Origin: Magnetococcales bacterium
Lineage (GTDB): Bacteria; Pseudomonadota; Magnetococcia; Magnetococcales; JADGAQ01
Assembly (NCBI GenBank): GCA_015231925.1
Contig: JADGAQ010000003.1
Span: forward strand, 27,424-62,859
Length of the DNA stretch: 35,436 bases
Reading direction: 5' to 3'
The notes beneath the pieces were generated by a model, which searched no databases, was not told the DNA's origin, and saw only the letters and a program-made list of their open reading frames with translations. A program made the position numbers and the translations under genes. Shown here piece after piece: positions 8,727-35,344 of the stretch (its first letter is position 1; each line of letters starts with the position of its first letter).

Positions 8727-8783
8727 TTCAATATTTTATCTTTTAAGTATCAAAAAAAGGAAATGTTCTGTCCGTTGACGTTT
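8727..8783 (+). repeat. 57-bp AT-rich dispersed repeat, copy 1
   Basis: The segment beginning TTCAATATTTTATC and running through a poly-A stretch to GTTGACGTTT recurs at 31010-31066 in the same orientation with only three differences. It is strikingly AT-rich against its surroundings and lies between the ATP-grasp gene and the first GC-rich hairpin repeat. Confidence 0.85.
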
Positions 8784-8833
8784 CCGTGATCAAAGCGCGG
8801 CAAAGGTTCCGACCCAGCGCAGCCTGGCCGTGC

Positions 8834-10147: not shown

Positions 10148-13100
10148 CTACTTGAATCGGGTGAAGTCGGCGGGAGCGGTTTTCTTCTTTTTTATGCACT
10201 TCACCGAAAGGGTAGCCGCAGGACCAAAATCCTGTATATCCACGTCAAATATGCTTATTCCAACTTGATCCCCACCATGTAAGTGAGAAATAACTCGTTC
10301 GTGCCTTTCAGAAAACGGAGCCTGAACCGTTGATCCACCGTACTGGCCGGAATTAACCAGAACGATGTGTTGAAACATATGGTATTGTAAGGCTGCAGCC
10401 ATATTGTCAAATGTGGCGACGTCTTTGTTAAAAGCGGAAATAATAAACATATCGGAGACATTTTTTAAGTCTGATGCAAGCTTTAAGTCGGTTGCATCAT
10501 AACAAATTGCGCATGTCATTCGATACGGTCGACTGCAACCGGTATTCAATTCAATAACCAGTTGATAGGGGCGGTATCCAACCACGCCGAGCTTCTGTTC
10601 ATTCTCAGTTGGATACTTTTTGCCTTGAAAGCGGGTAATTATGGACATGCCGGACTCTTTTTTATCTGGAATCAGCCAGCAAGCCTCATTAATATACGAT
10701 CCTGAATTTAGCTGGCGGTAATTCAGGCCGGTGATAACCATGGCCTTTGTTTTGTTTATTAAGCTTCTTAATACGAAAAGATCGTCGCGATGAAAAGCGA
10801 GTTCTGGAAAGACGATCAGGTTAGCCAATGGTTCGTGGTTGGCATTCGTTCCTGCGGAATTCGTCGTCTGTTGTACACGCAAATAATTATTAACCAAACC
10901 GCATACGGCTGTTACGTGGCGCCGGTGCTTCGCTCTGAAGGATGGGCCGTCCATTGAGGGATCAAGCTTGGAAAAATCAGAGTCTTTTGGGAAAAGTGTT
11001 TGTACTAAGACTACGCGCAAGACATTTCCGCTTTCCCGTCGAGTGTGATTAATAGGAATAGGATAGATAGGGAGTTTGGATGCTCTTCCGTATAGATCTC
11101 TTAATAATTGAAGTCGAGTTAACAGCAGTTTCTTTAGGTCGTCCAACGAATTGATTGTACAAAAGCTATCAATGAGGCGGTTGGCTAGCTGTACTCCCGG
11201 CCACTGAAGTAATCCCATAAGTAGTTCGCTCACCCAAGGGGAAAAGGGGGCAGTCTGTCCGGACATGTATTCCGGGGAATGATTCATTCCTTGCCGGCGG
11301 CTATACCAACTATTTCTTAACCCGCGGTACCCATCCCAATCGTGGCGGTACAGGAAGGGAGTTATGGTAAAATCCTCATCTCCTGTTAAGGCTGTTCGTA
11401 ATAAGCGACCAAGGGCGAAAAATTGTTTAGGAGTATCGCTCCAATTGCACCAAGAGGGAGTTTCAATGCGTGGGTCTCTGATATCTGTAGTTTCAAGCTG
11501 CAACTCAATGGCTGTTGCGGACATCGTTGGGTGAGGTAATTTTGTCCAAGATTCAACATGAATATATAAATTACGAAAAGAAAGTGTGCTTATGGCGTCT
11601 AAATCGAATCGGCGCATCAAGTCGATCATCTTGATAGCCAATTTGACCCACGGGATTTCATGTTGAAATGGATTGTCCTCTCTTGAAATAATGCGCCAGA
11701 GGGAAATCATTTTATTATTAAGGTCGCTTAGTCGGGTAGGTGTTGTACTCCTTTTATATGTTGAAAATAAATATCTGGCTTCGGGCTTTATCCAATCTTG
11801 TTTAGCTTCTCCAATTTCTATTAAAATATCAGGCATTAGGTCGGGGCGGTTGAAAAAGATCCCATTTAGAGTCTTGGTTCGATCCTCGGGGGAATGATGT
11901 TCAAGGGCATTAACCAGCCATGTTGCAAAGCGATAATTATTTGGATGAAGTTGTTGAAAGACCAGCGCCGCAACTAGTTGATCCCAAGTAAACGGGGCGT
12001 CGTAGGTTGAGGCGTTCAGCAGATCTAGGTAGGGTTTAACTGTTTCTGAATCAACTGTGTTAGGGATGCTTAATGGGTTAGGTTCATGTGTGGCTAATAA
12101 TAGCAATGCCTGTTGTTTGACATACCAAGGCGGATTTCGTTGTTTTAATAACTTTTTGGCGTAGGAAACCAATAAAAAGCGGTATTCCTGGAGCTTGGCT
12201 GAATCGGGTATACCCAATTCAGGCACATTCATTCCGGTTTCGACAGCTCCTGCACGAAGCAAATCAGCGCATACATACCATGCAACCAATTGCAAACCTT
12301 TTGTTCCTTTTGATGGTCGTTTAGTGTAGAGTTTTTCAAGGGATTCCCAGACTGGTTTCAGAAGCTCAGGGCTGGGGAAAAGATCCAGTGCATAGCGAAG
12401 TACAAGGGAGAGGGATGGGTCGTGGGCCCATGCCAGGATCATCTTCCGGGCAAACATCTCTATTTCATGGTCGATGACCTCCCTTTCGGTAACCCCGTTT
12501 TCGAAATTTCTTTCAAGGTCAGTCATGCTGCGCCGTTCCCGCAGGACCTTTCGCAACCTACCAGCGGCAAACCGTTTAATGGTGTCGTCCCGAACGCCTG
12601 CCTTTGGAGATGTGAGTTTTGCCAATTGATGAAGCGGCTCCTCGGTCGTTACGATTCTGTCGAATGATGTGGCAAGTGATAATAATGCGTCTAGTCCAGC
12701 GGTGGTATGTTGTAGTGTTTCCATATCACCAGGTCCGCTAAGGTTGCTTGTAATCAGTGACATTCGAGATGACACTCCTGATTTGTCTTCTGTAAAGCGA
12801 ACCGGAGCGATCTCTGTTTTATCTTTATTTATCTCTAATTGTCCTTTATGGGTCAGGCTGTTTGTGAAGCAATCAAGGTAATTATTTATAAATTTAGAGA
12901 GTATTGTGTCTAGTTGTTTGTTATTTGTTGTGTTATTTTGTGGTTTTATGTCTACTAATAGTCGAATATCATCGACATACCTACAATAATCAAATATCGT
13001 AAGTCTGACGTTGCTATTCGATTCGTAACCATTGCAAGTAATCTTTATGTCTGCTCCGAGAAGTCCATTTATCTGGCGGTCAAATTCTAACATATAGGCG

Positions 13101-14014
13101 TTTGCAAAAAATCCACTTGCAACCAATCCTTGGGGGATCCCATTGGGTAAGTCTTCCCCCTTTAGGAACTTATGCGTCGAGGTATTAATTTTGTCTTGGC
13201 GGCTCCACTCCCAATTAAATATTTTCTTGAGAAGATTCCAGAAATTCTCTTCATCATTCTTTTGATCTGTAAATTGATAATTATTAATAAAATCTGCATA
13301 TTCGCTTTGTAGGCGAGCGAGGAGAATGTCTCGATTAATATTATCAAAAAACGCTGATATATCCAGTTTAATGATGTAAAGTTCGCGGTTGTCGCCAATC
13401 TGGTTTTGGATTGCATTTGCAACTATTTTAGGTCGTTCCAGAAAGCGTTGATAGTCCTGGTAGTAGCGCCTGTAGGTTTCGCTGTTTCCCCACCCGAACC
13501 GTGCCAGTGGTTTGTCATTTGCCCCTTTCGAATCTTGAAGAAAGTTGCAGTATAATCGATTACCGTAACTATGAATGCCTCGGCGACTGGCCTCAATATA
13601 ATCGGTAACTGTGGTGTCTCCTTGAGCGGTCTCGATGCAATCGGCGAGGCAAAGCATGGCGGCGGTGGCCATGGTTTGTTCCCGAATGCCCAGGTGAGCC
13701 AGAGGGCGAAGGAATACGGGCGCATTTATCGGCTTCCATACACCTTTTGAAAAGTGCCAAGGCGTACTCTTTGGGGCAGGGACCATTCGCATAGGGTTTG
13801 GTGTACATTCGCCATTTTTGATTTCCTCGCTCCACTGCGTTATTGACTCTTCCAGTGTCACAGCCGATTTATCAAGATCCAGAATATCGGCGTACCAATT
13901 ATGCCGTCGGATATAGCGTTGCGTCTTTTTCCATGCTTGAGTCAAGATTACAGGGTCACTCAGGTATTCCAGTCGCGGTGCAAGAAAACGGTACTTTGGG
14001 TCTACAATGCTCAT
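10148..14014 (-). CDS. Reverse transcriptase-nitrilase fusion, DRT type 1 architecture
   Basis: A 1288-aa protein, clearly poorer in GC than its neighbours. The N-terminal third is a reverse transcriptase: motif A KLDISAFFDNIN (catalytic D217), motif B GIPQGLVASGFFAN (~292-305) and the YVDD box at 346-349. A long helical middle region (~480-980) has no domain I recognise. The C-terminus from ~995 is a CN-hydrolase/nitrilase domain with all three catalytic positions: Glu1071 in FPELAF, a Lys at 1132/1133 in QGKKYPTE and Cys1171 in CAICYDATD. RT-nitrilase fusions are known as defence-associated reverse transcriptases of type 1 (UG/Abi clade), with anti-phage activity reported for the class. Both active sites look intact, so the gene is probably functional. 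It stands alone, with no retron ncRNA or maturase/intron features, and is bracketed by 89-bp direct repeats, suggesting acquisition. Confidence 0.92.
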   Translation of the reverse strand: MSIVDPKYRFLAPRLEYLSDPVILTQAWKKTQRYIRRHNWYADILDLDKSAVTLEESITQWSEEIKNGECTPNPMRMVPAPKSTPWHFSKGVWKPINAPVFLRPLAHLGIREQTMATAAMLCLADCIETAQGDTTVTDYIEASRRGIHSYGNRLYCNFLQDSKGANDKPLARFGWGNSETYRRYYQDYQRFLERPKIVANAIQNQIGDNRELYIIKLDISAFFDNINRDILLARLQSEYADFINNYQFTDQKNDEENFWNLLKKIFNWEWSRQDKINTSTHKFLKGEDLPNGIPQGLVASGFFANAYMLEFDRQINGLLGADIKITCNGYESNSNVRLTIFDYCRYVDDIRLLVDIKPQNNTTNNKQLDTILSKFINNYLDCFTNSLTHKGQLEINKDKTEIAPVRFTEDKSGVSSRMSLITSNLSGPGDMETLQHTTAGLDALLSLATSFDRIVTTEEPLHQLAKLTSPKAGVRDDTIKRFAAGRLRKVLRERRSMTDLERNFENGVTEREVIDHEIEMFARKMILAWAHDPSLSLVLRYALDLFPSPELLKPVWESLEKLYTKRPSKGTKGLQLVAWYVCADLLRAGAVETGMNVPELGIPDSAKLQEYRFLLVSYAKKLLKQRNPPWYVKQQALLLLATHEPNPLSIPNTVDSETVKPYLDLLNASTYDAPFTWDQLVAALVFQQLHPNNYRFATWLVNALEHHSPEDRTKTLNGIFFNRPDLMPDILIEIGEAKQDWIKPEARYLFSTYKRSTTPTRLSDLNNKMISLWRIISREDNPFQHEIPWVKLAIKMIDLMRRFDLDAISTLSFRNLYIHVESWTKLPHPTMSATAIELQLETTDIRDPRIETPSWCNWSDTPKQFFALGRLLRTALTGDEDFTITPFLYRHDWDGYRGLRNSWYSRRQGMNHSPEYMSGQTAPFSPWVSELLMGLLQWPGVQLANRLIDSFCTINSLDDLKKLLLTRLQLLRDLYGRASKLPIYPIPINHTRRESGNVLRVVLVQTLFPKDSDFSKLDPSMDGPSFRAKHRRHVTAVCGLVNNYLRVQQTTNSAGTNANHEPLANLIVFPELAFHRDDLFVLRSLINKTKAMVITGLNYRQLNSGSYINEACWLIPDKKESGMSIITRFQGKKYPTENEQKLGVVGYRPYQLVIELNTGCSRPYRMTCAICYDATDLKLASDLKNVSDMFIISAFNKDVATFDNMAAALQYHMFQHIVLVNSGQYGGSTVQAPFSERHERVISHLHGGDQVGISIFDVDIQDFGPAATLSVKCIKKKKTAPADFTRFK

Positions 14015-16634: not shown

Positions 16635-19208
16635 CTAAACGGTGATCCTGGCAGCGCGGACCCGGCTGCGGATTTCATCGTAGATCGCTATTCCAATCCT
16701 TGGGTCCACTTCCAGGGTGATCACCAGGGCGTAGGGGATTTCCCCGTGGAAGGGGCCTGCCCCCGCTTTGCTGGTGATTTCGACTTCCATGTGGTCACCG
16801 TCTTGAAAAGCGGCAGCTTTTTCTCCTTGGAAAATCTCGTGCTGCACCGTGCCGCGTTTGACGGCATTGAGGTCCACCTCCACCCTTTCAACCTCCGGAT
16901 GTTCCTGCTTGCGGGCAAAGAAAAGTTCAGCAACCCGCCAATCCTGGTGGTCCGGATTGACCGGTGAGAACCAGGCCAAGGTGATGATCAAGCGGCGATG
17001 GCCCGTCTTGCCACTCAACGATGGGGGCAAGGGAAAACGATGCGTCTGAACTTGATCCTGATACAGGGATCCACAGGCCAGAGCGGTTACCCGATGTTCA
17101 TTACACGCCATAACGCGGCAGGGATCGGCATGGCCATACCCGAACAACCGGCTCATGTACTCCCTCAGCTTATTGGCATTTTGCGATGGTTTTAATATCC
17201 GGCTCGCCTCCACAAAGGCGTTTCCCCCGGAGGCGCCATGGACCAGGAGAGCTTTCAGCCAGAGAGCGCGGGGAATCGAATCGATCCGTTCGAAGCCGGA
17301 TTCAGCACTCAGGGATTCCAACACATCATACAGTTGCACCCCGGCGCGGGTGGCCAGGGCCGTGGCGTTGCTGGTCCCCCGGCTGTAACCGGTGTGCGTT
17401 GCATCTCCGGAAGGGCCGGGGCAAGCCGTTTTCTGGCCCGGTGCTGACGGCAGATTCAGTACATCCAAGGTGGCCTTGGCCGAGGTGGTGAAACTTTCTC
17501 TAAGGCAAATGCGGCCACCGTTCAATAAGATATCCGGCTTGATGGCGCGTCGATACCCCATGCCCTGGGCATTGATCGGACTGGGCATTTCCTTATGCGC
17601 CGGATAGGGATCGATGGAATGGGGAGGGATTCCCGGGGGAGAGGCGTCGGCATGGGTGGCGGCAACGGTCAAGACATTCATCGCCTCCGCAGGCGAGAGC
17701 AGGCGACGGTTGCGGGCATCGGCGGCGACGCCTGTCAGAACGGAGCGAGTGTGTTCCGAGGGCGCCATGTTCCGGAATGCCCCCGGGGATGCGTTCAACA
17801 CAATCGGGTGGTCATGGTTCCCGGCGCTGACCAGGAACAGAACCTTGTATTTCCAGGCAAGCCAATCCAGCAGGCGGGCCAGTGGGCTCAACATCCGGTC
17901 GAAGGGGCGGTCCCTGATACCGATGGAGAGGTTGATCAAACAGATCTTCCGGGTAGAGTCGGTTGGGGCGCCTTTTTCGAAGATGTCTCGAACCGATTGC
18001 TGTATCAGATCGATAAGGGAAACTCGCTCCGGGCTGCTCTCCGGGCGACGGCCACCCGTTGGATTGAAGCGGGGCTTCAAGATCGGGCGCACATACAGGG
18101 GATGGCGCAATGGGGCATCGTTGGATCCCAAATCGCCCCACAGGATCAGAGAGGCCATCGCGGTGCCGTGCCGCCTTTCGGAGGCTTGGTAATCGGCCTC
18201 GAAATCGTCCGGGTCGTCGATGATCAGTCTGCCGGAAAGACGCTCATGGTTGGCCAGTGGCAATCCATCCAGCAGTGCGGCGATGGGAGGCAGGTTTGGG
18301 AAGGGTGGTTCTTCCTGAACAGGGGAATCGGGTTGTGTTTCACCAAAATCAAGAATTCCCATCATTTGCCCGGAAGCCCGGATAAATTGAATCTGTTCAC
18401 ACTGTAACAGTTGCACCTCTTCGATAGTATCGATGATGTGCGCTACGGCGTGGATGGGAATCTCGATCAACAGGGCATGATAGCCAATCTCGGGGATAAG
18501 GCTGCGCTGCAAAATCCGGCCATGGAGCGGGGTGAGCAGATCGGTGACTCGCTGCTCGGCGGATGAGCGATCGAAGGGCGACTTTCGAGGCCAGAGCTCC
18601 ACTTCACAGAAAACGGATTCCGCACCCTGGTGCAATCGCTCCTTCCAGTCCGCCAGAACTCCGGTTTCCAGAAGTCGATCCTGAATGCCCCAGGGACGAA
18701 TGGTGTGCAAATGGCTAAAGAGTGCACTGATGCTTGTGTAACCCCATTCCATAGTCTCCCCATTAAGCCATCTGTTCCAAAGGGAGAGTAGTTCCTGCCA
18801 AGCGCGCTGATTTGCGAGTAGGAGAAATACCCTTCCGCGCAAGGTGCTTTCGGTACGCTCATTATGCGTGTTTGTGTTGAAAAAATCGTCGTCCGGGGGG
18901 ATATCCTCTTTCTCAAACTCCCCCATCCATTCCAGCCCTTCGATTTTTTTCAATGCATCCAGGAAGTACTCGATCGATCCGATCGTTTCCAGCACCAGCA
19001 CCTCTTCCGGAACGATTCCGGTGACATCGGTGGCAAGGCTGGCCCGCTTATTCAGAAAGGTGTTGTGGAGCGCTTCGAATTGTGGGGAGAGTCGTTCGGC
19101 TTGGCGTTGCGCAGAGAGGCCGGGTTTGCCGGATAAATTTAATTTTCGTTTGTTTCGCTCTTTCGGAACGCCAGGCGAAGGCAATATCAACAGCGGACGT
19201 TCAGCCAT
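16635..19208 (-). CDS. Subtilisin-like serine protease (S8), partner of an AAA ATPase
   Basis: An 857-aa protein without a signal peptide, so probably cytoplasmic. The peptidase S8 domain lies in the middle (~305-640) with an intact triad: D314 in AALLDGLPL, H347 in RRHGTAMASL and S613 in YSRGTSNATALA. The oxyanion-hole Asn464 is in LVSAGNHDHP. The ~300-residue N-terminal region and ~220-residue C-terminal region are not recognised; the layout resembles the Y4bN-type S8 subgroup. The ATG at 19208 overlaps the end of the AAA gene by 8 bases, so the two are coupled. An intracellular subtilase with a dedicated AAA+ protein suggests ATP-controlled proteolysis, possibly abortive anti-phage defence. 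That role is inference from the architecture and the island location. Confidence 0.9.
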   Translation of the reverse strand: MAERPLLILPSPGVPKERNKRKLNLSGKPGLSAQRQAERLSPQFEALHNTFLNKRASLATDVTGIVPEEVLVLETIGSIEYFLDALKKIEGLEWMGEFEKEDIPPDDDFFNTNTHNERTESTLRGRVFLLLANQRAWQELLSLWNRWLNGETMEWGYTSISALFSHLHTIRPWGIQDRLLETGVLADWKERLHQGAESVFCEVELWPRKSPFDRSSAEQRVTDLLTPLHGRILQRSLIPEIGYHALLIEIPIHAVAHIIDTIEEVQLLQCEQIQFIRASGQMMGILDFGETQPDSPVQEEPPFPNLPPIAALLDGLPLANHERLSGRLIIDDPDDFEADYQASERRHGTAMASLILWGDLGSNDAPLRHPLYVRPILKPRFNPTGGRRPESSPERVSLIDLIQQSVRDIFEKGAPTDSTRKICLINLSIGIRDRPFDRMLSPLARLLDWLAWKYKVLFLVSAGNHDHPIVLNASPGAFRNMAPSEHTRSVLTGVAADARNRRLLSPAEAMNVLTVAATHADASPPGIPPHSIDPYPAHKEMPSPINAQGMGYRRAIKPDILLNGGRICLRESFTTSAKATLDVLNLPSAPGQKTACPGPSGDATHTGYSRGTSNATALATRAGVQLYDVLESLSAESGFERIDSIPRALWLKALLVHGASGGNAFVEASRILKPSQNANKLREYMSRLFGYGHADPCRVMACNEHRVTALACGSLYQDQVQTHRFPLPPSLSGKTGHRRLIITLAWFSPVNPDHQDWRVAELFFARKQEHPEVERVEVDLNAVKRGTVQHEIFQGEKAAAFQDGDHMEVEITSKAGAGPFHGEIPYALVITLEVDPRIGIAIYDEIRSRVRAARITV

Positions 19209-20211
19209 CGGGCTCCTCGGGAACGGACGTTGCGGGTGGATCCGGCGTGAAACGCTTCTGCCATTGCAGGAGGCGTTCGGCGACGATCCGTTTCAAATCC
19301 CCGTTGGGGATGGAGAGGATATAGCGTCTTTGGACGTCCAGTCCGAACTGCTCCATCTCCGAAAAACTCAACCCTAGCAATTTTCGGGCGAGAGTGCCAG
19401 AGGTAAAACCCAATTTTTGATCAAAGCGCTGCTCGAAACGCTTGAACCACTCCTCCGCTTGTGCCCTGGTGGGGTTATCAAGACGTAAACGAATCTGAAA
19501 GCGCCGCCAAACCGCCCGATCCAAAAGTTCCGGATGGTTTGTCGCGGTGACGACAACCACGTAACTGGGTAGCGCATCGACTTGAAGCAACAACGAACTG
19601 ACCACCCGTTTTATTTCCCCGGTTTCATGAAGATCGCCCCGTTCTTTGCCAAGAACATCGAACTCATCCAGAAAAAGGACACAGCGTTGTGTACGCACAT
19701 AGTCGAAGAGTTTGGCCAGACGGGTCGATGTTTCGCCCAGAAAGCTGGTGATGACGGTATCGTAACGGACGACCAGAAGGGGAACGGCCAGTTCAAAGGC
19801 CAGCGCCTCCGCCAGGGAGGTTTTGCCGTTGCCGGGAGGACCGGCCAGTAAGACGCGATGGCGCGGTTCCACATTGTGAGAGCGCAACAGATCGGCCCGT
19901 TGCTGTTCCTCCACCAGTTCCCGACAGGCGTTGCGCGCGGTTTCCGGGAGAATCAAATCGTCCAGACCACGGTTGGCGGTCACTTCCAGTAAATAATCGC
20001 TTCCGGCAGCGTTGCGCTGCGGCAATTGACCGGCGAGACGAGGGGTGCCGTTGTTGCCGTTGGTCAGATAAACCGACAGGCGGTCGGCAAAGACATGATG
20101 TTGCTTGGCCCGCTCTTCGCTGATGATGGCTTCCAATACCTTGCGAAACAGCGTGTGGTCACTTCGTGACCCGGAACGTACCAGTTCCAGGAGTAAATCC
20201 GAACGTGCCAT
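19201..20211 (-). CDS. AAA+ ATPase coupled to the subtilase
   Basis: A 336-aa protein with one AAA+ module: Walker A GPPGNGKT (124-131), Walker B VLFLDEFD (178-185), sensor-1 Asn225 in TATNHPELLDRAVWRRF and arginine-finger candidates R236/R237 in the same motif. It belongs to the classic (FtsH/Cdc48-like) AAA clade. The ~110-residue N-terminal helical region is not recognised and may bind the substrate or the protease. The ATG at 20211 follows a GGAG at suitable spacing. It is the first gene of the two-gene unit, overlapping the subtilase start by 8 bases. It probably controls or feeds the S8 protease, as paired AAA+ proteins do for other proteases; this is inference. Confidence 0.9.
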   Translation of the reverse strand: MARSDLLLELVRSGSRSDHTLFRKVLEAIISEERAKQHHVFADRLSVYLTNGNNGTPRLAGQLPQRNAAGSDYLLEVTANRGLDDLILPETARNACRELVEEQQRADLLRSHNVEPRHRVLLAGPPGNGKTSLAEALAFELAVPLLVVRYDTVITSFLGETSTRLAKLFDYVRTQRCVLFLDEFDVLGKERGDLHETGEIKRVVSSLLLQVDALPSYVVVVTATNHPELLDRAVWRRFQIRLRLDNPTRAQAEEWFKRFEQRFDQKLGFTSGTLARKLLGLSFSEMEQFGLDVQRRYILSIPNGDLKRIVAERLLQWQKRFTPDPPATSVPEEPDG

Positions 20212-30954: not shown

Positions 30955-31009
30955 GAACAGAGGGGGTTGTAAAGCGCCCTCTGTTCAATAGATATATTTT
31001 TATTTTCTT
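30955..31009 (+). terminator. Rho-independent terminator
   Basis: A perfect 10-bp stem, GAACAGAGGG (30955-30964) with CCCTCTGTTC (30977-30986), has a 12-base loop and is followed by an A/T tract with runs of T (ATATATTTTTATTTT). It ends the muramidase-lipoprotein unit and separates it from the PHP-ATPase operon. Confidence 0.9.
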
Positions 31010-31066
31010 TTCAATATTTTATCTTTTAAGTATCAAAAAAAGGAAATGTTCTATCCTTTGACTTTT
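31010..31066 (+). repeat. 57-bp AT-rich dispersed repeat, copy 2
   Basis: Matches 8727-8783 in the same orientation with three substitutions. It lies directly after the terminator and about 125 bases before the PHP-ATPase operon. The stretch 31067-31191 shows no other clear feature. Confidence 0.85.
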
Positions 31067-31191
31067 CATTTATCATTCATAGGGATTGTCCCAACCCATT
31101 GCAGCGCCGTTTTGCAATTGGCTCGACAAACAGAGTTTGGAAGTCTGAGGGGAAGCGTCTCCTCGGTATTGGAACGGAACGAGGGTGGGGA

Positions 31192-31608
31192 ATGAGCGCA
31201 TACCGGGGTATGAGGTGGTTCAAATGCGATCTCCATGTTCATACCCCGGAGGATGGCAGTTGGAGGGATGCCGAGACCAGACTGGGAGACCCGCGAAGAA
31301 TCAAGAAGGAAGGTACTTTCGACGAGACGGATGTTCAGGAAAAGGCCCGGAAATTCCTGATCCGTTGCCACGAGACTGGCCTTCATCTCATTGGAGTGAC
31401 CGATCATAATTTTTCAGCACGGGATGCGCACCGTGACTGGTTTTTGTCCCATCTTATCGAACAGAACGAACCAGTGGCCGAATCCGTTGGCAGGGATCCA
31501 CTCACCATCTTTCCGGGGTTTGAGGTGGATATCGGGTATCATCTGGTCTGTCTGTTTCCGCCGGTAAAGAAGTCGGAGGATTTGAAGAAACTCGACGAGA
31601 TCCTGTGA
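31192..31608 (+). CDS. N-terminal part of a PHP domain (5' piece of a split TrlF-like gene)
   Basis: A 138-aa reading frame from ATG 31192, which follows GAGGGTGGGG. It carries the first metal-binding motifs of a PHP phosphoesterase: CDLHVHTPED (D13, H15, H17), GVTDHN (D71, H72), GFEVDIGYHLVCLF (E111, H117). It then stops at TGA 31606-31608, in the middle of the PHP fold. The remaining PHP motifs continue in the next frame, whose first codons (TTLGLPKTARF) read on naturally from LKKLDEIL here. Dropping two bases (CTGTGACG to CTGACG) would join them. It is either a disrupted gene, a sequencing error, or a genuine GTGA-coupled split protein. Alone it cannot form a complete PHP active site. Confidence 0.85.
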   Translation: MSAYRGMRWFKCDLHVHTPEDGSWRDAETRLGDPRRIKKEGTFDETDVQEKARKFLIRCHETGLHLIGVTDHNFSARDAHRDWFLSHLIEQNEPVAESVGRDPLTIFPGFEVDIGYHLVCLFPPVKKSEDLKKLDEIL

Positions 31609-34046
31609 CGACATTGGGCTTGCCAAAGACGGCGCGATTTGGCGAGGGGAGAAGTTCCAAACCCCTTTTCCGGGATGGGGGGAAGGTATCCCTGAAAACG
31701 GTCTTGTCCATGGTGCAGCATACACACGGTGGTGTGGTCATTGCGGCCCATGCCGATCAAAAACCGGATGGGCTGTTCGTTTCGTCCAGTCATAAAGAGG
31801 AGTTCTCTGCAAATCCCGACTTGATGTGTGTCGAGGTGACCACTTGGCCCATTGCGGAAAATGCGGGATTGCGGGCCAAATTATCCGGGAATAATTCCTG
31901 GAGGCCCGATCCTCCCTTTGCCGCCGTCATGACCTCCTCCGATGCCAAGTCCCTGGCCACCGGTGAGGACGGCAAACCCGCAGCCAACTGTCTGGGCTAT
32001 CGTCATACCTGGATCAAGATGTCACAGCCCTCCATCGAAGCCTTGCGTCAGGCCTTTCTGGATGCCGAATCCCGCATTCGGCCCATGGAGCCGGACGATC
32101 CCGCCAGCCGTGAAAAACATGCCCGCCTCGAATGGGTCGAGATCAACGGAGCGGCTTTTCTGGGAGATCAGCGGATCGACTTTTCGCCCCATCTCAACTG
32201 TCTCATCGGCGGTCGTGGCAGCGGCAAGTCGGCCATTTTGGAGAGCATGCGACTGGCCTTGGGCAAAGAGCGGGATTCCTCCCTGGATGAGGAGAGCCGG
32301 AAGAAGGTTGCACGCATCAAGACGCTTCTCGACGTGGGGGAACAAACCGAGGTGCGGGTTGGCTGGCGCAGCCCTGACGGGGTCCGGGAGAGCGTTATCC
32401 TCTCAAAGAACGGGATCCGGGTGGAACCCGATTCGGACATCTGGGACATGGAAACCCATCTGGGCGATATCGCCATCCAGTTTTTCAGCCAGCAGCAGTT
32501 GAACCGAATGACCGAAGAGGGGGGGCTCTTTCTCCTTCCTCTTCTGAACGGTTTCGTCGGAGAGGCGTTGCAGGAGCAGGGGAAGTTGCAGGAGGCGGTT
32601 CGTGTCGAAATCCGGCAGTTGTTCGCCCGGAAAGAGCAGTTGGACAAGACCGACATGGAGTTGCGGCAACTGACCCAGGAGTTGGCGGACCTGGAGAGGC
32701 AGTGGCAGGCCGTGGCGGCCTTGCAGGAGGAGGCGCAGCGGCATCAGGGCTTGCAGGAGGAACGGAACTATATCAACCAACTCAAAGCCTCCGTGGAAAA
32801 CGACAAATCCCGTTTGCTGAATCTGGCTGCGGACATCTTCGACAGCCACTCTCCCTTGGGCTCGACCTGTGAAGCTTGGCCCCACGGAAGCTGGTTTTTG
32901 CAACGCGATCAGGAGATTCTCAAGAGAAGGGAAACGTTGCGGACAGCCATCGTCGAACTGGGGCAGCACTATCGACAGGATGTTGAAAAATTCTTCACCG
33001 CCCAAACCGACTGGCCTGAGATCAGGAAAACGATCTGGGAGGCGGAGGAGGTCTATGCCAGGGTTTGCGCCGACAAGGGGATTGCGCGGGAGGAGGTGAG
33101 CCGTTTCCAGGAGATCAGCCGGAAACGGCAGGAAAAGGGGCTGGCCTTGCAGCAGAAACAGGCGGAGCGGGAACGCCTTCGTCAGGAGGTGGAGCGGCTG
33201 CCCCAGGCTTTTGAGAGGTTGCACGCCGTCTGGCGCGAGGCTTACGCCATTCGAGTCCGGGTTGCGGAGGAGATTTCCGCTGGTTCCGCTCGGGACGGGA
33301 GACGTTTGATTCAGCTTTCGGTGGCTTTCGGAGCGGACCAAACGGGTTTCCAAAAGAGCTGGAACAGCCTCTGTACGGATCGACGTTCTCGTCTGGGCAG
33401 GAATTGGGAGGAGCTGGGAGACGTCGTTTTTGAGGAATATCGGCAACGGGAGGGAACTCCATCGGTTTGGGGGCTGGTTCAGGGGTGGTTGGAGAACGAG
33501 TTGACCCTGCCGGAGGCCATCAAGAAGCATCTCCGGGGGATTTCTCTTCATTTCGAAGAGGTGAGGAATCAGCTTCTCATTAAGGAATCCTCCAAATGGC
33601 GGGAGGTTCGGGTGAGCCGGGTGGCGGATCGGGTGGATCTGGAGTTGCTCGGCGAGGGTGGGCGGATCGGCAGAATCTCGGACGGCACCCTTTCGGACGG
33701 GCAGCGCAACACGGCGGTCTTGGCCATGATACTGGCCAAGGGCAACCATCCCCTGGTCATCGACCAGCCGGAAGACGAACTCGATGCCAAATTCATCTAC
33801 GGGGAACTGGTCCCCCTGATGCGTCATCTGAAATCGAAACGTCAGATCATCCTCTCCACCCACAATGCCAATCTCCCGGTCAACGGGGATGCCGAACTGG
33901 TATGCGCCCTGGAGGCCAAGGCGGGAAAGGCGGTGAAGCGCGCCGAGGGCGGTCTGGATCGGGAGGAGGTGACCCGTGCGGTGCTGGACATTCTGGAAGG
34001 TTCGGAGCAGGCCTTCCGGAAGCGCAAGGAGAAGTACCATTTCTGA
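31605..34046 (+). CDS. TrlF-like ATPase: end of PHP domain plus SMC/ABC-type ATPase (3' piece)
   Basis: An 813-aa frame from a possible GTG at 31605. Residues ~1-130 are the second half of a PHP domain (VVIAAHADQKPD with H49/D51, MTSSDAKSL), the continuation of the previous frame. The ATPase follows: Walker A GGRGSGKS (202-209), a long coiled coil (~330-560; EQLDKTDMELRQLTQELADL, QKQAERERLRQEVERL), the ABC signature LSDGQ (696-700), Walker B LVIDQPEDELD (~718-728) and the H-loop STHNANLPV. PHP fused to an SMC-like ATPase is the TrlF-type plan, suspected of nucleic-acid processing or defence. No good ribosome site precedes the GTG. An AlbA_2-HATPase gene follows 14 bases downstream. Confidence 0.88.
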   Translation: MTTLGLPKTARFGEGRSSKPLFRDGGKVSLKTVLSMVQHTHGGVVIAAHADQKPDGLFVSSSHKEEFSANPDLMCVEVTTWPIAENAGLRAKLSGNNSWRPDPPFAAVMTSSDAKSLATGEDGKPAANCLGYRHTWIKMSQPSIEALRQAFLDAESRIRPMEPDDPASREKHARLEWVEINGAAFLGDQRIDFSPHLNCLIGGRGSGKSAILESMRLALGKERDSSLDEESRKKVARIKTLLDVGEQTEVRVGWRSPDGVRESVILSKNGIRVEPDSDIWDMETHLGDIAIQFFSQQQLNRMTEEGGLFLLPLLNGFVGEALQEQGKLQEAVRVEIRQLFARKEQLDKTDMELRQLTQELADLERQWQAVAALQEEAQRHQGLQEERNYINQLKASVENDKSRLLNLAADIFDSHSPLGSTCEAWPHGSWFLQRDQEILKRRETLRTAIVELGQHYRQDVEKFFTAQTDWPEIRKTIWEAEEVYARVCADKGIAREEVSRFQEISRKRQEKGLALQQKQAERERLRQEVERLPQAFERLHAVWREAYAIRVRVAEEISAGSARDGRRLIQLSVAFGADQTGFQKSWNSLCTDRRSRLGRNWEELGDVVFEEYRQREGTPSVWGLVQGWLENELTLPEAIKKHLRGISLHFEEVRNQLLIKESSKWREVRVSRVADRVDLELLGEGGRIGRISDGTLSDGQRNTAVLAMILAKGNHPLVIDQPEDELDAKFIYGELVPLMRHLKSKRQIILSTHNANLPVNGDAELVCALEAKAGKAVKRAEGGLDREEVTRAVLDILEGSEQAFRKRKEKYHF

Positions 34047-34060
34047 GGTGGTGAGCGGCC

Positions 34061-35344
34061 ATGAGGTATGAAAAGACGGAAGAGCTGCTGCTGGAAATCG
34101 CGGCGGGGGAGGATACCTACCTGGAGTTCAAGGAGGTGGTCTTCGTCGGCGACGCGCCGCGCTTTTCCAACGAGGAGGGCAAGGCCCAGCAGGTCATTGC
34201 CGAGGTTTTCGTCAGCCTGGCCAATACCGACGGGGGGGTGGTCCTCTTCGGGGTCAACAAGAACCGGCAGGTGGTTGGAATCGATGAAAACAAGCGGGAC
34301 AAACTGGCCCAGTGGGTGGTCAATTGCGCTCTGGACGGTTGCCTGCCGAAAGGGCTGCTGGAGCCCCGCCTCAATTGGCGCTACCTGAATGAAGCGGGAC
34401 GGGAGCGATTGATTCTGCAAGTGGATATTCCCCGGTCGCGGGATACCATTTTCCAGACGGTCCAGGGACGATATCTGAAGCGGGTGGGGGAGCAACGGGA
34501 AATCATCCCTACGGAACAGTTGGGGCGACTGCTGACCTCGCGTGGACTGGCCCTGCCTTTCGAAGAGCGGCCCTGTTTTGGCGCCTCACTGGAGGATTTC
34601 GACCGGGATCTCTTCGATGACTACCACCGGCGCCGTTTCGGGCACTCCTTCGGGGAGCGGGGTCGTCCTTTGGAGTATCTTCTGGAAAACCTCAAACTGG
34701 CCAAATCCAGTGAAGAGGATGGCTGGCGGTTGACCAATCTGGGGGTTCTGCTCTTCACCAAACGTCCCCAGGGCTGGTTGCCGGGGGCGTATGTGGAACT
34801 GGCGCTGTACGACCACGACATCGCCGACGGCAATACGGTGGATGTAAAGCGGTTCGAAGGCCCGGTGGACCGGCAGATTGCCGCAGCGTTGGAGTATCTG
34901 TTCCGCAGTCCCTATCTGGCGATTCGCTCCGAGAAGAACGAGTGGGGTCGTCTCGACAAGCCGCGCTACAGCGGCACGGCGCTTCAGGAGGCGGTGGTCA
35001 ACGCCGTGGTGCATCGGGATTACGAGGTGAGGGGCTCCCAGGTGATCGTCAACGTATTTCCGGACCGGCTGGAGATCGGCAATCCCGGTGGTTTGCCCAA
35101 TTCGCTCATTCCGGAGGATTTGTATGAAGGCTGCCAGCCGATCCGACGCAATCAGCTTCTGGCGGGCACTCTGCGGGATTACGTCAATCCGCTCACCGGT
35201 CGCAATCTGATGGAGGCGCAGGGGGTGGGTTTTCTCTCACTGGTGAGGGAGAGCCTTGAAATATCGCATGCAAGGCCCTCCCTCGAAGTGGTCAACCAGG
35301 GGCAGGGGGTCAAACTGACCATCCATGGGGGTGATGGATTCTGA
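34061..35344 (+). CDS. AlbA_2 (Schlafen-like) domain plus RecG-like HATPase domain protein
   Basis: A 427-aa protein. The N-terminal ~130 residues are an AlbA_2/Schlafen-type domain: EDTYLEFKEVVF, then ANTDGGVVLFGVNKNRQVVGID and VDIPRSRDTIF. The C-terminal part has a GHKL-type ATP-binding module (HATPase_c_4): ALQEAVVNAVVHRDYEVRGS (~307-326), then DRLEIGNPGG near 340. Such proteins are often labelled 'ATP-binding protein' or RecG-related and occur as transcriptional regulators and in defence loci. It follows the TrlF-like ATPase by 14 bases in the same direction, so it is probably the same transcript. It may sense, regulate or add an RNA-binding function to the ATPase. Confidence 0.88.
   Translation: MRYEKTEELLLEIAAGEDTYLEFKEVVFVGDAPRFSNEEGKAQQVIAEVFVSLANTDGGVVLFGVNKNRQVVGIDENKRDKLAQWVVNCALDGCLPKGLLEPRLNWRYLNEAGRERLILQVDIPRSRDTIFQTVQGRYLKRVGEQREIIPTEQLGRLLTSRGLALPFEERPCFGASLEDFDRDLFDDYHRRRFGHSFGERGRPLEYLLENLKLAKSSEEDGWRLTNLGVLLFTKRPQGWLPGAYVELALYDHDIADGNTVDVKRFEGPVDRQIAAALEYLFRSPYLAIRSEKNEWGRLDKPRYSGTALQEAVVNAVVHRDYEVRGSQVIVNVFPDRLEIGNPGGLPNSLIPEDLYEGCQPIRRNQLLAGTLRDYVNPLTGRNLMEAQGVGFLSLVRESLEISHARPSLEVVNQGQGVKLTIHGGDGF

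Follow-up and report, generated by a model that had tools for sequence, protein, structure and literature searches.

The window, as the whole stretch of 35,436 nucleotides analysed here is called, comes from a Magnetococcales bacterium and carries near its end a TrlF-family gene that probably serves in anti-phage defence and encodes a PHP nuclease with an SMC-like ATPase; its reading frame is divided in two. The question raised by this locus is whether the divided trlF represents a protein made in two pieces, a gene whose frame can be switched or re-joined, or simply a broken gene. All features concerned lie on the forward strand. The N-terminal fragment (31192..31608) starts with the ATG at 31192, is 138 amino acids long, ends with LKKLDEIL and stops at the TGA of 31606-31608. 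The C-terminal fragment (31605..34046), read in the -1 frame relative to the first, starts with a GTG, begins with (V)TTLGLPKTARF and is 813 amino acids long. The break point itself (31604..31608) is a TG doubled to TGTG: the extra TG sits in CTGTGACG, where it creates the stop codon and makes the stop of the first frame and the start of the second overlap as GTGA. Both frames are open over the 28 codons from 31524 to 31608. Downstream, 14 bases after trlF, follows its operon partner (34061..35344, forward strand), an intact gene of 427 codons combining Schlafen AlbA_2 and HATPase_c_4 domains. The contig is 62,859 bases long and its end is that of the window, ~1.4 kb after the end of trlF; a second copy of the trlF locus was sought in the genome of the bacterium and not found.

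The N-terminal half matches positions 1-110 of the TrlF family model NF045780 (TrlF_fam_ATP; 75 bits, E 4e-21), while the C-terminal half matches positions 142-944 at 407 bits, exceeding by itself the curated cut-off of 350 bits. An earlier note made from the sequence alone was right in describing a TrlF-like PHP-SMC ATPase gene broken within the PHP domain by two bases and in placing the ends of the two frames where they are given above. The note's division of the PHP motifs is right for the C-terminal half, which harbors IAAHAD and SSDAK, but not for the N-terminal half, to which it assigned three motifs and which holds four motif regions: DLHVHTPED, VTDHN, PGFEVD and a conserved His (YH). 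The C-terminal half also contains the SMC/RecN-type ATPase motifs, namely the Walker A GGRGSGKS, the signature LSDGQ, the Walker B VIDQPEDE and the His switch STHN, and is matched by the Pfam families AAA_23, SMC_N and AAA_21. PDB matches, by sequence and by fold, are mostly to SMC, Rad50, RecN and RecF ATPases, and no solved TrlF or Ppl structure is among them. Whereas TrlF family members elsewhere are single proteins of ~920-1110 amino acids, in which PHP and ATPase parts are continuous, the frame of the window gene is interrupted after residue 138, at 31604-31608. As found, it is a broken gene of the TrlF family and not a working member.

Relatives for comparison came from a search of 150 related genomes, from 80 loci in species genomes and, within the order, from a family search covering 48 genomes. 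The 150-genome search and the 80 species-genome loci together provided 71 full-length proteins, a few genomes being represented twice. In all 71 aligned relatives the junction is continuous, with no spare codon between the flanking residues: the LDEIL/TTLGLP of the window corresponds to INRIL/IKLGL or VNMIL/TKLGL in relatives. Since the flanking residues are adjacent codons in the relatives, the excess at the break is exactly two bases, a tandem duplication of one TG unit, and the extra TG indeed accounts for the frame change, as had been claimed. Within the order Magnetococcales (48 genomes), the NF045780 cut-off is exceeded by 19 other matches, each whole in one frame, and the window gene is the only above-cut-off match in two; a PHP-only remnant is present in one other genome (L124). 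The earlier note had proposed to look for the same split in full-length TrlF-like relatives, and none has it. These relatives are not particularly close: the N-terminal half is 55-64% identical to its five closest Magnetococcales relatives and 39-41% identical to two more, and the nearest relative of the window TrlF is ~50-53% identical.

The split is therefore best explained, with good probability, as an ordinary and recent loss-of-function mutation. A normal two-gene TrlF-Schlafen defence unit would have had its first gene recently inactivated by duplication of a TG dinucleotide, for which replication slippage from TG to TGTG may be the source. Translation would end after 138 codons, and the 813-codon frame, which contains the ATPase part, may still be translated weakly, starting at the overlapping GTG. 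As the PHP metal ligands then reside on two separate chains, the nuclease of the window TrlF is expected to be inactive. We infer that the TG duplication is present in the living cell.

The break is believed to be recent because the rest of trlF looks intact and the operon partner is whole. Neither half carries a further stop or frame change; the earlier remark that there is no other decay is right, and the break is hence recent or an error. Among 40 relatives, the family-invariant columns are kept at 16 of 16 positions in the N-terminal half and at 75 of 78 in the C-terminal half, and the GC content by codon position remains coding-like 3' of the break. With a looser threshold, the window protein misses 12 of the 86 columns of the C-terminal half that are conserved at ≥90%; relatives, counted over the whole protein, miss 3-12 of 102-109 such columns. 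This is somewhat more than in most of its sisters, and a mild relaxation of constraint may have set in before the frameshift. The TrlF branch leading to the window measures 0.85 versus ~0.5 for its sisters (~1.7x), and that of the unbroken partner gene 0.45 versus roughly 0.25-0.4 (~1.5x). As the branch of the partner is lengthened too, most of the extra change in the window TrlF appears to be lineage-wide.

The comparison also brought to light that TrlF is disrupted repeatedly, at differing places. Of the 80 loci fetched, ~72 hold a TrlF gene away from contig ends and can be tested; ~8 of them (about 11%) are disrupted, each at a different place and none at the position of the break in the window. 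The lesions are an in-frame stop in L038, frame changes in L057, L075 and L096, and internal deletions in L063 and L088, while TrlF is present as fragments in L065 and L098. Two of these records are not metagenome-assembled genomes (MAGs): L057 is from Pseudomonas quercus and L063 from P. resinovorans. At L075, L088 and L096, where the Schlafen partner is present, its match is almost full-length, like that of the partner in the window. Judging from sequence, the scattered positions fit the repeated, independent loss of a dispensable defence gene and not a conserved arrangement.

An unlikely alternative, still to be taken seriously, is that the real gene is continuous and that the two bases stem from an error of assembly or consensus in a draft metagenome assembly, or from a minority strain variant that entered the consensus. 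The genome is a draft of 358 contigs with 1.96% contamination, the break is the sole defect of trlF, and the relatives are continuous at the junction, all of which would suit such an error. Conversely, duplication of a dinucleotide outside a homopolymer is an atypical and rare sequencing error, and real disruptions are common in the TrlF family, including those of the two Pseudomonas records.

Far less probable is a functional split, also raised by the earlier note, in which two GTGA-coupled cistrons yield products that assemble into one PHP barrel. The GTGA overlap permits termination-reinitiation and the motifs are kept in both halves; if true, TrlF would be here a naturally split, tunable defence nuclease, rebuilt from two translationally coupled chains and unusual among PHP nucleases. 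The evidence speaks against this, and such a nuclease is very doubtful. A two-gene arrangement is not conserved, the 71 full-length relatives being continuous and the 19 of the order whole. In the AlphaFold model of the relative L025 (mean pLDDT 86.7), the break maps to a predicted helix of the PHP barrel (129-141) and not to a loop, and the bases 5' of the GTG contain no strong Shine-Dalgarno sequence. Furthermore, when dinucleotide duplications were simulated in three intact relatives, a start codon overlapped the new stop at 23-61% of positions and lay within 30 nt of it at 66-92%. Such overlaps being common by chance, the GTGA is uninformative and no sign of design.

Phase variation through slippage at a short repeat, which would make trlF the switchable nuclease gene once envisaged, is more improbable still: the change does amount to one complete dinucleotide unit (TG to TGTG), but long tracts are normal in phase-variable genes, and a tandem-repeat search across trlF identifies no simple-sequence tract at the break, only two TG units. 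Programmed -1 frameshifting joining both frames, the last mechanism that had been put forward, is the least credible of all: the second frame is indeed in -1 and overlaps the first, but the 28 codons open in both frames contain no X_XXY_YYZ slippery heptamer, the RNA around and downstream of the overlap folds no better than shuffled sequences (z of -0.21 and -0.04, respectively), relatives conserve frame-0 residues as far as the break, so that a shift at an earlier codon would exchange conserved residues of the helix, and the arrangement is absent from all relatives. Even taken together, the split protein, phase variation and frameshifting are quite improbable.

Read as a recent loss of function, the broken trlF has little weight beyond annotation: it is one more loss of a defence gene whose operon partner is left whole. 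The pairing of TrlF with the Schlafen gene and a BREX-embedded branch of TrlF are more interesting than the split and merit a separate study. A Schlafen AlbA_2 plus HATPase_c_4 gene directly downstream of TrlF is conserved in Magnetococcales and in many other phyla. This gene order is observed at 31192-35344 of the window and at loci L005, L006, L008, L023-L025, L042, L062 and L066-L113, and the pairing occurs in both Magnetococcales TrlF subgroups as well as in distant phyla. TrlF and Schlafen-HATPase probably form a two-gene defence unit, one that can be tested. Further defence genes lie on the reverse strand of this contig: one encodes a DRT1a reverse transcriptase-nitrilase (10148-14014), and IetS and IetA form a pair at 16635-20211. 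The region is thus dense in such genes and qualifies as a defence island. To note, an AT-rich repeat is found just upstream of trlF (30985-31130) and again at 8727-8792. It has at least 60 copies in the genome and, in the ten loci read (L133-L142), is arranged in closely spaced inverted pairs, head to head. This repeat, for which an Rfam search of the window gives no match, is probably a MITE-like element.

Relatives of the window TrlF are diverse in their PHP part and in their setting. In one branch (L028-L064) the first PHP motif is QxQ instead of HxH. At the typed loci, the Schlafen partner is missing from 27 of 30 QxQ genes and present at 18 of 19 HxH genes. At least 15 QxQ genes are preceded by pglX and, where the locus reaches far enough, mostly followed by pglZ/brxL; with such flanks, these TrlF genes are located inside BREX operons. 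A literature search found no paper naming TrlF in BREX. Two Magnetococcales TrlF, those of L025 and L010, have nearly identical ATPase parts and partner genes but differ in the type of their PHP half, a pattern resembling an exchange of the PHP part. Finally, a PHP-less TrlF-like ATPase of ~630-680 amino acids recurs in Magnetococcales (L115-L122) and constitutes a separate, ATPase-only group; several genomes have a gene of ~378 codons directly after it, and some of them then a response-regulator-like gene. These ATPases (632-676 amino acids) were considered as natural splits of TrlF with an in-frame TGA and rejected: each begins at a start codon of its own and is not preceded by a PHP gene, and they therefore lend no support to a split TrlF.

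The literature searched contains nothing on a role of TrlF in defence against phages, and a scan of viral contigs found no relative. Among known systems, the window TrlF shares its PHP plus ATPase layout with Ppl (NF042955, PADLOC Ppl). The PADLOC Ppl model is matched by the C-terminal half at 131 bits, and the window protein scores 173 bits against NF042955, for which the cut-off is 1000 bits, making it a relative of Ppl and not a member. Ppl is described in a review as a 3'-5' exonuclease of ssDNA that is kept in check by NTP binding at its PHP and NTPase domains (PMC12904381). By analogy, intact TrlF presumably acts against phages as a nuclease under the control of its ATPase. The partner gene, in turn, has its AlbA_2 and HATPase_c_4 layout in common with the Schlafen-HATPase-wHTH genes of BREX and related loci (PMC12839542); unlike these, it has no BREX genes found adjoining it and is paired with TrlF.
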